Shown piece by piece: positions 20,640 through 56,169 of a stretch of 62,687 bases of DNA. The notes below the pieces were generated by a model. That model was given only the letters and a program-made list of their open reading frames with translations, searched no databases and was not told where the DNA came from. Numbering within the stretch: position 1 is the stretch's first letter; each line of letters starts with the position of its first letter. The stretch comes from [Lactobacillus] rogosae (lineage in GTDB: Bacteria > Bacillota > Clostridia > Lachnospirales > Lachnospiraceae). A program made the translations under genes and the position numbers. Location of the stretch: positions 1 through 62,687 of the forward strand of contig FONU01000021.1 of the NCBI GenBank assembly GCA_900112995.1, in the 5' to 3' direction.

Positions 20640-20661
20640 GTCAGTATAGTTATATTATGAT

Positions 20662-20866
20662 GATACCAGGGGCAAAAGGTCTAAACCCACATGAGCTTGC
20701 TCATAGGTGGGTGAAAGACTTTGGGACCCGCCCCGATATGAGCATAAAAGTGGGATGGTAATCCCACGATATGCGAATATTGGGGAGAATTGTGGGAGTG
20801 CGTAGCACGGAACAATTCGTAGGTATCAAAGTCGGGGGCTTTTGACCCCGACATCATTATGATGTA
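20662..20866 (+). other. Multi-hairpin structured element, candidate ncRNA or dispersed repeat
   Basis: A GATACC/GGTATC helix (20662-20667 with 20822-20827) encloses three nested hairpins. The first has GGGGC/GCCCC at 20669-20673/20730-20734 with inner helices AAGGTCT, CCCAC and ATGAGC. The second is GCATA/TATGC around GTGGGAT/ATCCCAC (20742-20774). The third is GAATTGT/ACAATTC around GTGC/GCAC (20787-20818). A GTCGGGG/CCCCGAC hairpin (20831-20852) and a CATCAT/ATGATG dyad follow. It is more GC-rich than its surroundings and lies between the divergent importer and hydroxylase operons. It does not match a riboswitch I know. The 441-bp gap 20521-20961 otherwise holds only the importer promoter. 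Confidence 0.55.
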
Positions 20867-52993: not shown

Positions 52994-53686
52994 ATGATAG
53001 GTATTATTGGAGCTATGGACGAAGAAGTAGCTAAGATAGTTGAAGCTATGGAAATTGAAAGACAGGAAGATAAGGCTTGTATGTCATTTAAGGCTGGAAA
53101 GCTTAATGGCAAAGATGTTGTTGTTGTAAGAAGCGGTATCGGCAAGGTAAATGCGGCAGTATGTACACAGATACTTGTAGATGATTTCGGCGTTGATTAT
53201 GTTATTAATACAGGAATTGCAGGTTCACTTAAGGCAGAGATTAATATTGCAGATATTGTTATATCAAGTGATGTATTACATCACGATATGGATGCTTCAG
53301 GATTTGGATATCCTTTAGGACAGATTCCAAGAATGGACGTATTGTCTTTTGAAGCAGACAAGCACCTTATAGATGTTGCCAAAGAGGCTTGTGCTAAGGT
53401 TCTTCCAGAGATAGGTACACATATTGGCAGGGTTGTAAGCGGTGACCAGTTCATATCAGACAAGGCTGTTAAAGAAAGAATATCAGCTAATTTTGATGGA
53501 TACTGCACAGAGATGGAAGGTGCAGCAATTGCACAGGCAGCATATCTTAATAAAGTTCCATTTGTTATATTAAGAGCAATCTCAGATAAGGCTGATGATA
53601 GTGCAACTATGGATTATCCTACATTTGAGAAGCAGGCGATTGAGAATTCGGTTAAGCTGATTAAGGAATTGGTGGGACAGATATAG
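52994..53686 (+). CDS. mtnN: 5'-methylthioadenosine/S-adenosylhomocysteine nucleosidase
   Basis: 230 aa. IGIIGAMDEEVAKIVEAM begins the fold with the catalytic Glu; VINTGIAGSL, MEGAAIAQAA and LRAISDKADD (catalytic Asp) complete the active site. It cleaves MTA and SAH to adenine and the thio-sugar in the methionine and autoinducer-2 pathways. GAGGA supports ATG 52994; in-frame ATGs from 52961 lack an SD. Confidence 0.95.
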   Translation: MIGIIGAMDEEVAKIVEAMEIERQEDKACMSFKAGKLNGKDVVVVRSGIGKVNAAVCTQILVDDFGVDYVINTGIAGSLKAEINIADIVISSDVLHHDMDASGFGYPLGQIPRMDVLSFEADKHLIDVAKEACAKVLPEIGTHIGRVVSGDQFISDKAVKERISANFDGYCTEMEGAAIAQAAYLNKVPFVILRAISDKADDSATMDYPTFEKQAIENSVKLIKELVGQI

Positions 53687-53776
53687 ATATAGACAGATAT
53701 AATTTCTGCTGATTTATTATGTCGGACGCGGAGTGCGGTTGTGGCAAATGGTTGTGACAAACGGACGGGCTGTGGC

Positions 53777-54006
53777 TAGGGGCTGTGGTGGTGCGTGTGA
53801 GACTGCTATAAGATAATTGGATATTACTAAGTCATTCCCGGTGGAGTTATGGTGCCGGACGCACCGCTCCAAATTCGCCATCGTGGCTCAGTTGTCGCTT
53901 GCCCAGACCTCGTGTCTGGGCATTGCTGTATGGTGGAGGGAATGACTAAGAAATATCAGCAATTATCTTATAATGTCAGTCCTCACACGCACCACCACAG
54001 CCCCTA
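53777..54006. repeat. Foldback element A (GC-rich, structured)
   Basis: Two long arms (53777-53839 and 53938-54006) are largely complementary and enclose a 72-bp core (53857-53928). The core has hairpins GCCA-TCG-TGGC and TGCCCAGAC-CTCGT-GTCTGGGCA. GC content is far above the surroundings. The core is identical, in reverse complement, to that of element B. It lies in the 902-bp gene-free gap 53687-54588. Open frames through it are low-quality translations of repeats. Confidence 0.85.
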
Positions 54007-54201
54007 CCCGCACCCCTGTCGGGTTGCGATGGCAGGGGCACACACTACCGGGGTTGCGGATAATAGGGCAGAAATATGGCTGGGAAGGGAGATAGGAGTG
54101 TGGCTGTCAAGATGTAGTGGTTGGAAAGCTGTACAAATCAGTGGGACCTGTAGTTCGTGAAGTTAGCTGTAGAGGTGTACTGTATATTCCTTCACAATGC
54201 A

Positions 54202-54495
54202 GGAATTAAGGCAGACGGCTGGACGGTTGTGTCAGCGTGGGCTGGCGGGGGCTTGTTACGCAAGTATTATAAGCACAATTGAGATACAACTTAGTCTTTC
54301 CCCTCACCAAACAGCAATGCCCAGACACGAGGTCTGGGCAAGCGACAACTGAGCCACGATGGCGAATTTGGAGCGGTGCGTCCGTTCTCTTTGCCTATCG
54401 GGAAAGGCTTAGTAGTATCCAATTGTCTTATAACTTAAGTAACGAGCTCCCCGCCAGTCCAGCCACACAACCATCCAGCTGTCTGCCTTAATTCC
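54202..54495. repeat. Foldback element B (inverted copy)
   Basis: Arms 54202-54302 and 54400-54495 pair with one another and enclose the core 54312-54383, an exact reverse complement of core A (72 of 72). The inner 30 or so bases of the arms are homologous to those of element A, with compensatory substitutions; the outer arms are unrelated in sequence but still complementary. Confidence 0.85.
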
Positions 54496-54588
54496 GTCCG
54501 TTATAAGCCATAATTATATAATCATAAATCCAATATTACAGAAATTTATAGCATATCATCTATAATGCACTAATAGCAAACTCACGCC

Positions 54589-56169
54589 CTAAATCCCAAG
54601 CATCTCACTATAAACCTGCAATGCTCCATCAGTATCGTGTGCCAGCACTCTCTTAGCAAGCACCTTTCCAAGCTGTACGCCTTCCTGATCGAAGCTGTTG
54701 ATATTCCATAAAAATCCCTGGAACATAACCTTATTCTCAAAATGAGAAAGCAAAGCACCTAAAGACTTAGGAGTAAGCTTGTCTCCAGTTATAATGCTTG
54801 AAGGTCTTCCACCTTTGAAAGTCTTATTAGGGTTATTGTCATCTTTTCCACACGCAAATGCAACAATCTGAGCCGCTACATTGGCACATAACTTCTGCTG
54901 GCTTGTGCTGTCCTGAATAGTAACATCATTTTCAAGCTGGCTGTTCTTAAATCCAATGAACTGTAAAGGAACGATATTAGTTCCCTGATGAAGAAGCTGA
55001 TAGAAAGAATGTTGTCCATTAGTTCCCGGTTCACCAAATATTACTGGACCTGTAGGGTAATTAACCGGTTCATTAAATCTGTTGACGGACTTACCATTAG
55101 ACTCCATATCAAGCTGCTGTAAATGTGCAGGGAAACGGCTTAAGCCCTGTGAGTATGGAAGTACAGCAGTACATTCATATCCAAGTACATTGCGTTCATA
55201 TACGCCAATAAGCGCATCAAGCATTGCTGGGTTCTTAAGAATGTCTTTGTTTAATGCAAGTTTGTCCTCAGCAGAGGCACCTTCAAGGAAATCTGCGAAT
55301 ACATCAGGACCAAATGCCAATGATAATACAGCACCGCCTACAGAAGATGTTGAAGAGAAACGTCCTCCGATGTAATCGTCCATATAAAATGCATCTAAAT
55401 AATCATCACTTTTGGCAAGAGGTGAGGTCTCGCTTGTTACTGCAATCATATGCTTTGCAGGGTCAAGACCAGCTTCCTTAAGAGCATTTTTAACAAATGA
55501 TTCATTAGTTAACGTCTCAAGAGTTGTTCCAGACTTAGATACAAGAATGAATAATGAGTGTGCAACATCAATAGAAGTAAGTACAGCAGATGCATCATCT
55601 GGATCTACATTACTTATAAAATGAGCTTCCATTTTAAATGAATTATTCTTTTTAGCCCAGTTCTCAAGAGCAATATACATAGCACGAGGACCTAAATCAC
55701 TTCCACCGATACCAATCTGAACAACAGTTGTGAACTTCTCGCCAGCACCATTAGTAATAGCACCATTATGTACCTTGTCAGCAAATTCAGCGATACGCTT
55801 CTGTTGTGTTGTATAGAATGTACGCTTGTCTACGCCGTCAGCATTAACAGCTTCACCGAGCTGTCCGCGTGTCATATGGTGGAGTACAAGTCTGTTCTCG
55901 CCGGTATTAACAACTTCGCCATTGTAAAGAGCAGCAAATTTGTTTGAAAGTTCAGCTTCTGTAGCAAGCTTTTCAAGTGCCTTAAGAGTTGTATCATCTA
56001 CTTTCTTAGCTGCGAAGTTGTAGTTAAGTCCCTCAGCCATAGGAATATTATATGTCTTAACACGTTCAGCACCAGCTTCGCCCGACATAACCTTATTAAG
56101 GTCAACAAGCGGAGTTTCCTTTAATTCCTTAAAAGCTTCAAGTGTGTCAAGATTGTTCCAATTAATCAT
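54589..56169 (-). CDS. pgi: Glucose-6-phosphate isomerase
   Basis: 526 aa, interconverting glucose-6-P and fructose-6-P. VVQIGIGGSDLGPRA, LVSKSGTTLET (phosphate loop) and DDYIGGRFSSTSSVGG are family signatures, and GEPGTNGQHSFYQLLHQG near the C-terminal half holds the catalytic Glu and His region. AGGAGGAG SD. It is preceded on the minus strand by a leader with three inverted repeats. Confidence 0.97.
   Translation of the reverse strand: MINWNNLDTLEAFKELKETPLVDLNKVMSGEAGAERVKTYNIPMAEGLNYNFAAKKVDDTTLKALEKLATEAELSNKFAALYNGEVVNTGENRLVLHHMTRGQLGEAVNADGVDKRTFYTTQQKRIAEFADKVHNGAITNGAGEKFTTVVQIGIGGSDLGPRAMYIALENWAKKNNSFKMEAHFISNVDPDDASAVLTSIDVAHSLFILVSKSGTTLETLTNESFVKNALKEAGLDPAKHMIAVTSETSPLAKSDDYLDAFYMDDYIGGRFSSTSSVGGAVLSLAFGPDVFADFLEGASAEDKLALNKDILKNPAMLDALIGVYERNVLGYECTAVLPYSQGLSRFPAHLQQLDMESNGKSVNRFNEPVNYPTGPVIFGEPGTNGQHSFYQLLHQGTNIVPLQFIGFKNSQLENDVTIQDSTSQQKLCANVAAQIVAFACGKDDNNPNKTFKGGRPSSIITGDKLTPKSLGALLSHFENKVMFQGFLWNINSFDQEGVQLGKVLAKRVLAHDTDGALQVYSEMLGI

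Follow-up and report, generated by a model that had tools for sequence, protein, structure and literature searches.

The window analysed here is a 62,687-nucleotide stretch of contig FONU01000021.1 (assembly GCA_900112995.1) of [Lactobacillus] rogosae, a member of the Lachnospiraceae whose genome is labelled G000. Within it, the convergent genes mtnN and pgi enclose a gap that holds two elements, A and B (Table 1). The single ORF of at least 80 aa in this gap (53849-54160, 103 aa) crosses element A and looks spurious. A preliminary description of this DNA had reported twin elements in opposite orientation with cores that are exact reverse complements over 72 bp. Both points are confirmed, and the identity in fact extends to 74 bp, one base further at either side. 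The compensating bases given for the inner arms (T53814 and A53965 in A, C54276 and G54425 in B) are likewise as claimed, and the sequence bears out the compensation between CATT/AATG and CTTT/AAAG. When folded as arm-core-arm, the elements reach z values of -9.9 (A) and -13.5 (B), with 0 of 100 shuffles as good for each, and their outer arms form 40 and 58 base pairs, respectively. We further note that the mtnN-pgi junction (53686-54589) is unlike that of genus mates, since in G002, G012 and G017 the stretch with pgi is located some 5 kb away, on the other side of mtnN. The idea of a simple empty site between the two genes was dropped because they are not neighbours in those genus mates where both were found. 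Elsewhere, the window contains a Clostridiales-1 RNA (RF01699, 149.8 bits) at 20661-20828 on the plus strand.

Table 1. Features of the mtnN-pgi gap, in window coordinates
Feature	Position	Strand	Remarks
mtnN	ends 53686		flanks the elements; gene name read from translation
Outer arm of A, one side	53764-53804		pairs with 53973-54020; no homology to other copies' arms in G000
Element A	53805-53972	-	full-length match to RF01731 TwoAYGGAY, model 1-168, 101.3 bits
Core of A	53857-53928		exact reverse complement to core of B
Hairpin 2 of A	53877-53887	-	loop ACGAU, not AYGGAY; read from sequence and model match
Hairpin 1 of A	53901-53921	-	loop ACGAG, not AYGGAY
Outer arm of A, other side	53973-54020		partner of 53764-53804
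Outer arm of B, one side	54202-54267		pairs with 54434-54495
Element B	54268-54433	+	full-length match to RF01731 TwoAYGGAY, model 1-168, 95.4 bits
Core of B	54312-54383		exact reverse complement to core of A
Hairpin 1 of B	54319-54339	+	loop ACGAG
Hairpin 2 of B	54353-54363	+	loop ACGAU; read from sequence and model match
Outer arm of B, other side	54434-54495		partner of 54202-54267
pgi	ends 54589	-	flanks the elements; gene name read from translation

Both elements pass the curated cut-off of 43 bits for the Rfam family TwoAYGGAY (RF01731), so that the structured RNA suspected earlier corresponds to a named family. Judged by their sequence, A and B are paralogous copies, in divergent orientation, of this dispersed family. 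TwoAYGGAY is a known family, listed in Rfam with unknown function, and is a dispersed intergenic repeat of gut bacteria. In the passages that deal with it, it has been rated a probable RNA that is probably not cis-regulatory (Weinberg 2010, PMC2864571), its binding of CsrA has been put forward as a testable hypothesis from motif likeness (the RMfam paper, PMC4333381), and it appears among the R-scape-improved families in Rfam 15 (PMC11701678); it is also mentioned in parts of PMC7657543 and PMC11661157. Rfam groups it with CsrB in one clan (CL00106). Because the two terminal loops of A and B are ACGAG and ACGAU and not AYGGAY, these copies are motif-less descendants or variants of the family, not typical members.

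The source genome has seven matches above the cut-off. Partial cores are also found at C47:151723-151768 and C18:56836-56881, no more than some 100 bases from a contig end, and since assembly may break at such palindromes, copies may be undercounted. Among 61 genomes of relatives, nine carry the family: eight belong to the window's genus, with 1 to 12 matches each, and the ninth (G025) belongs to another genus and has 20 matches, of which one falls below the cut-off. Carriers make up 44 of the 299 genomes in a sample of the Lachnospiraceae at E 0.001 (42 above the cut-off), where at most nine candidates were scored per genome and copy numbers are thus lower bounds. The presence of many copies across the Lachnospiraceae, proposed earlier as a check, is thereby established. 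In a sample of the class (392 genomes, at most seven candidates scored in each), the family is found in 35 genomes, 26 of them above the cut-off; 28 of the 35 fall outside the Lachnospiraceae, including 19 above the cut-off. The core pattern retrieved at least 120 stretches from named genomes, and among the matches listed the element is present in 63 of the 79 examined, all with titles of Lachnospiraceae, Roseburia or Hespellia, the last two of which we take to be Lachnospiraceae. An exact 34-base piece of the window's core has no match in this collection, from which its own genome may be absent. Repeats of this kind in Lachnospiraceae were also sought in the literature, and the search gave no paper.

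Other ideas about the copies were rejected. A phage or plasmid origin was discarded on the grounds that positions 53700-54520 have no match among phages and plasmids and that four viral contigs matched by the core pattern contain no family member above the cut-off; hairpin 1 as it stands in the window has no viral match either. The arms were also considered as guides acting elsewhere, and a search of the source genome with 53760-54010 gave nine matches, comprising only family members, the element's own arms and the partial cores at the two contig ends.

Close pairs of elements are almost always divergent (minus-plus), as in the window, and the plus-minus order was not seen. Across loci of G130, G344, G345, G002, G017 and G019, many of them orthologous, 53 clusters with members less than 700 bp apart divide into 24 minus-plus and 0 plus-minus pairs, 15 single plus and 12 single minus elements, one minus-plus-plus and one minus-minus-plus. 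The partly de-duplicated set of 127 clusters with both flanks includes 30 minus-plus and again 0 plus-minus. Outside the genus of G130, minus-plus pairs are found in G000 (twice), G017, G018, G081, G252 and at locus L290, while G210 has a close pair in the same direction. In the source genome the cores within a pair are nearly or fully identical (74 of 74 bases between A and B; one mismatch over about 70 corresponding bases in the second pair, on C47), and several differences separate the two pairs. The G130 genus does not show this: members of a pair are no more alike there than non-pair members (0.68 versus 0.67-0.71, with some pairs entered twice), and the proposal of conversion between neighbours thus rests on the two pairs of G000. 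An exploratory typing of 24 twins of the G130 genus, many of them orthologous, by a motif picked by eye assigned types in 16, of which 14 are mixed. At L141:2750-2800, the space between the two twins contains a different repeat, about 50 bp long, that has many matches in G130, G344 and G345.

In most genomes, outer arms are private to each copy and pair with their own partner. The earlier statement that the outer arms of A and B share no sequence and still pair is upheld. For the seven copies of G000, the median pairing score is 64 with the own partner and 16 with arms belonging to other copies, and random pairs of flanks score 15. The own partner is the best one in 7/7 copies of G000, 9/9 of G130, 9/16 of G025, 2/4 of G021 and 0/10 of G220, and the copies of the last three genomes have arm sequence in common (one G220 element was entered twice). 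Overall, 89 of 93 elements score above the 95th percentile set by random pairs of flanks. Paralogous arms have little in common in most genomes, and orthologous arms are nearly identical.

Analysis of the mismatches within the arms indicates that wobble pairs are not consistently preferred. A first set of 90 elements with an arm score of at least 30 gives 4194 Watson-Crick, 173 G-T, 157 A-C and 436 other pairs; G-T exceeds A-C in G220 (56 to 16) and G021 (14 to 4), and when G220 is left out the counts become 117 G-T versus 141 A-C. Another 60 elements, drawn from named genomes and with no core in common with the first set, give 2948 Watson-Crick, 76 G-T, 124 A-C and 177 other pairs. The excess of A-C in this second set is the reverse of what is expected for an RNA on the Rfam strand, and could come from mutation bias or from transcription of the other strand. 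A small control of five of the six window tRNAs with Clostridiales-1 shows 8 G-T, 0 A-C and 5 other mismatches, and a terminator control, too small at 24 terminators, shows 5 G-T, 3 A-C, 6 other single mismatches and 1 double. Within the core, mismatches number 9 G-T versus 3 A-C in hairpin 1 and 2 G-T versus 7 A-C in hairpin 2, the detection of which is unreliable.

Changes between species were counted in 56 pairs of elements more than 85% alike, which were counted both ways, are non-independent and include a few non-orthologous pairs. In the outer arms, 3426 base pairs are unchanged, 62 change to G-T, 43 to A-C and 103 to a transversion mismatch, and double changes are compensated in 42 cases and uncompensated in 11; about 2 compensated doubles would be expected by an estimate from the change rate. 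The corresponding inner-arm counts are 2908 unchanged, 36 G-T, 31 A-C, 58 transversion mismatches, 12 compensated and 3 uncompensated. Single changes over inner and outer arms together, which are not independent, give 98 G-T versus 74 A-C. A hand count of distinct outer-arm compensations, with one non-orthologous pair left out, finds 17, of which seven are of the transition type and ten of the transversion type; these ten lie outside the wobble path because a transversion cannot pass through G-U. In one twin followed across three species, arm changes are mostly one-sided and three pairs are compensated. By eye, we also observed that the 3' outer arms of many elements carry GTCCGT across from an internal loop; this sequence is complementary to the loop motif ACGGAC.

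Given this excess of compensation, the lack of a consistent G-U excess and the compensations of transversion type, template switching in DNA, a mechanism described in the relevant part of PMC8794818, is a better reading of the arm covariation than selection on RNA. The preliminary description had taken the compensatory changes as evidence of selection on base pairing. Covariation far beyond chance is indeed present, but it does not show selection on pairing.

At sites shared by G130, G344 and G345, with flanks mostly 85-98% alike, copy number differs between the genomes. At one of these sites, G344 lacks the second member of the twin, and the copy that G345 has there differs from that in G130. 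The ends at aligned turnover sites are mostly imprecise, the differences for the most part resembling imprecise deletions, and neither a clean empty site nor a target duplication was found at sites aligned in close species. Of the 13 genomes that have at least three copies, most, G000 and G130 among them, show no terminal repeats conserved between their copies; G220 does have such repeats, as do G025 and G021 in part. The ORFs between wider-spaced copies at three loci include no transposase by eye. The idea that the arms were copied in inverted form from the flank of the target was also considered, and the hints (5-6 bases at one site) proved too weak. With genes defined by a simple ORF rule, the 127 clusters lie between co-directional genes in 89 cases, convergent genes in 23 and divergent genes in 15, and an ORF spans ten. 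Single elements between co-directional genes are sense in 36 cases and antisense in 26, which is near random, and promoter-like or terminator-like sites are no more frequent at the elements than in shuffles.

One association that extends across nearly all carriers is the presence of csrA. Within the window's genus, csrA scores above the cut-off in 8/8 carriers and 7/8 tested non-carriers. In the family it does so in 39/40 carriers (G212 being without it) and 8/24 non-carriers (Fisher 2e-8, ignoring phylogeny), where the non-carriers are part of 255 and the carriers G067, G214 and G243 were left out; a further family carrier, G701, has csrA. In other clostridial families the counts are 25/28 carriers and 13/51 non-carriers, the latter part of 357 (Fisher 6e-8, again ignoring phylogeny). 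The carriers without csrA there are G526, G544 and G632, and 17/19 have it when a match to RF01731 above the cut-off is required. Each csrA test took in 80 genomes. An association of TwoAYGGAY with csrA was not met in the literature searched. The source genome has two csrA matches above the cut-off: besides the canonical gene on C42, there is a second, divergent CsrA-like gene at C14:83673-83819 (L248), and several carriers are similar in this respect.

GGA is present in 78 of 94 hairpin-1 loops, and the other 16 are ACGAU, ACGAG or ACGGU. The SELEX consensus for CsrA is RUACARGGAUGU, with six-base loops and the AC and GU paired, as given in the relevant part of PMC7652899, which also names the protein FliW as the CsrA antagonist of the Firmicute Bacillus subtilis. 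Because carriers nearly always have csrA and the usual loop fits this consensus, a CsrA-binding role is likely for the family. In the source genome, four of the seven copies, A and B included, have GGA in neither loop when read from their sequences. The hairpin loops of A and B lack the ANGGA by which CsrA sRNAs are recognised, GGA being absent from all four, and these two copies therefore cannot serve as evidence for a CsrA role. The recognised core postulated earlier agrees with the family, whose loops are of CsrA type, but not with A and B. That altered loops track the second CsrA paralogue was rejected, since G021 has altered loops with one csrA and G018 has two csrA with GGA loops.

These data can also be read in other ways. 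If the element were an ordinary structured sRNA, its entire hairpin would be a CsrA sponge and selection on the RNA stem would make the arms covary. One-strand loop conservation, the co-occurrence with csrA, compensating changes beyond chance, the 9 to 3 ratio in core hairpin 1 and the G-T preference of the G220 and G021 arms would all agree with this. We nevertheless regard it as unlikely, given two data sets without a consistent G-U preference in the arms, the transversion type of 10 of the 17 hand-counted outer-arm compensations, and paralogous arms that have little in common in most genomes, with orthologous arms nearly the same. Alternatively, the palindromes might act as DNA: a DNA enzyme would bind them as extruded hairpins or cruciforms, and the DNA hairpin itself would be under selection. 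Mismatches without a consistent strand preference and the occurrence of elements in gaps of all gene orientations are in keeping with this account, but it would make the csrA association a coincidence, and the loops, conserved on one strand, fit an RNA-binding protein; we consider it the least probable of the alternatives.

A foldback or MITE-like mobile element, read by a hairpin-specific transposase and with twins as inverted composites, seems to us an improbable explanation, on a par with the structured sRNA. Many copies with a patchy distribution, the divergent order of nearly all close pairs, and gain, loss or replacement at sites common to close species are what such an element would produce. 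The aligned differences, however, mostly resemble imprecise deletions, and neither a target duplication nor a clean empty site was found where sites were aligned. The ORFs between wider-spaced copies at the three loci do not look like transposases, the arms are unconserved between copies in most genomes (they are conserved in G220 and partly in G025), and 53700-54520 is unmatched in phages and plasmids, with the four viral core-pattern contigs holding no family member above the cut-off. Of the foldback mobile element suggested earlier, the patchy copies and their turnover therefore stand, and the insertion hallmarks and transposase were not found.

The explanation that we favour, by a narrow margin over its being wrong as a whole, joins a CsrA-hairpin core, arms kept by template switching, conversion in G000 and loss of the motif in A and B. 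The core in most copies would be a putative double CsrA-binding hairpin, which would titrate CsrA if transcribed. The long arms would be DNA palindromes whose complementarity is kept mainly by replication template switching between arms (quasi-palindrome correction), a process that would also yield multi-base and transversion-type compensating changes. In G000, conversion between inverted neighbours may preserve the identity of paired cores as their arms drift, and A and B themselves have probably lost canonical CsrA binding. More speculatively, and with the balance somewhat against it, TwoAYGGAY might be a chromosomal repeat that disperses CsrA-binding hairpins in self-correcting palindromes, with template switching and not RNA selection writing the arm covariation and with the divergent pair favoured. 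Copies of the A and B type would then outlive their protein-binding loops because the palindrome maintains itself.

Comparison with known systems places the elements closest to TwoAYGGAY as modelled in RF01731, with which they share a full-length covariance-model match, the two-hairpin core and the inner arms; their loops (ACGAG, ACGAU) differ, and the model covers neither the long private outer arms nor the divergent twin. With CsrA-sequestering sRNAs of the CsrB/RsmZ type, the family shares loops of ANGGA type, an Rfam clan with CsrB (CL00106) and csrA in nearly all tested carriers, but TwoAYGGAY has two sites per element and many copies dispersed over the chromosome. The REP/BIME repeats of Enterobacteria are intergenic palindromes, often in inverted pairs. 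TwoAYGGAY copies are likewise intergenic palindromes with inverted pairs, although they are much longer and their arms are unconserved between copies in most genomes. The hairpins attributed to template switching in the corresponding part of PMC8794818 resemble the arms in their multi-base compensating changes and in perfect stems arising from DNA copying; those are RNA genes, whereas here the hairpins belong to a dispersed bacterial repeat family. To the picture of this known family the analysis adds the head-to-head twin architecture, the private, covarying palindromic arms without consistent wobble preference, and the association with csrA.

Covariation normally counts as proof that an RNA is functional, and TwoAYGGAY has perfect stems that covary without consistent tolerance of G-U. 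The family thus provides a natural case in which to test whether template switching leads to exaggerated evidence for RNA. Its co-occurrence with csrA turns the suggestion of CsrA binding made in the passage on this motif in PMC4333381 into a concrete prediction for Clostridia.
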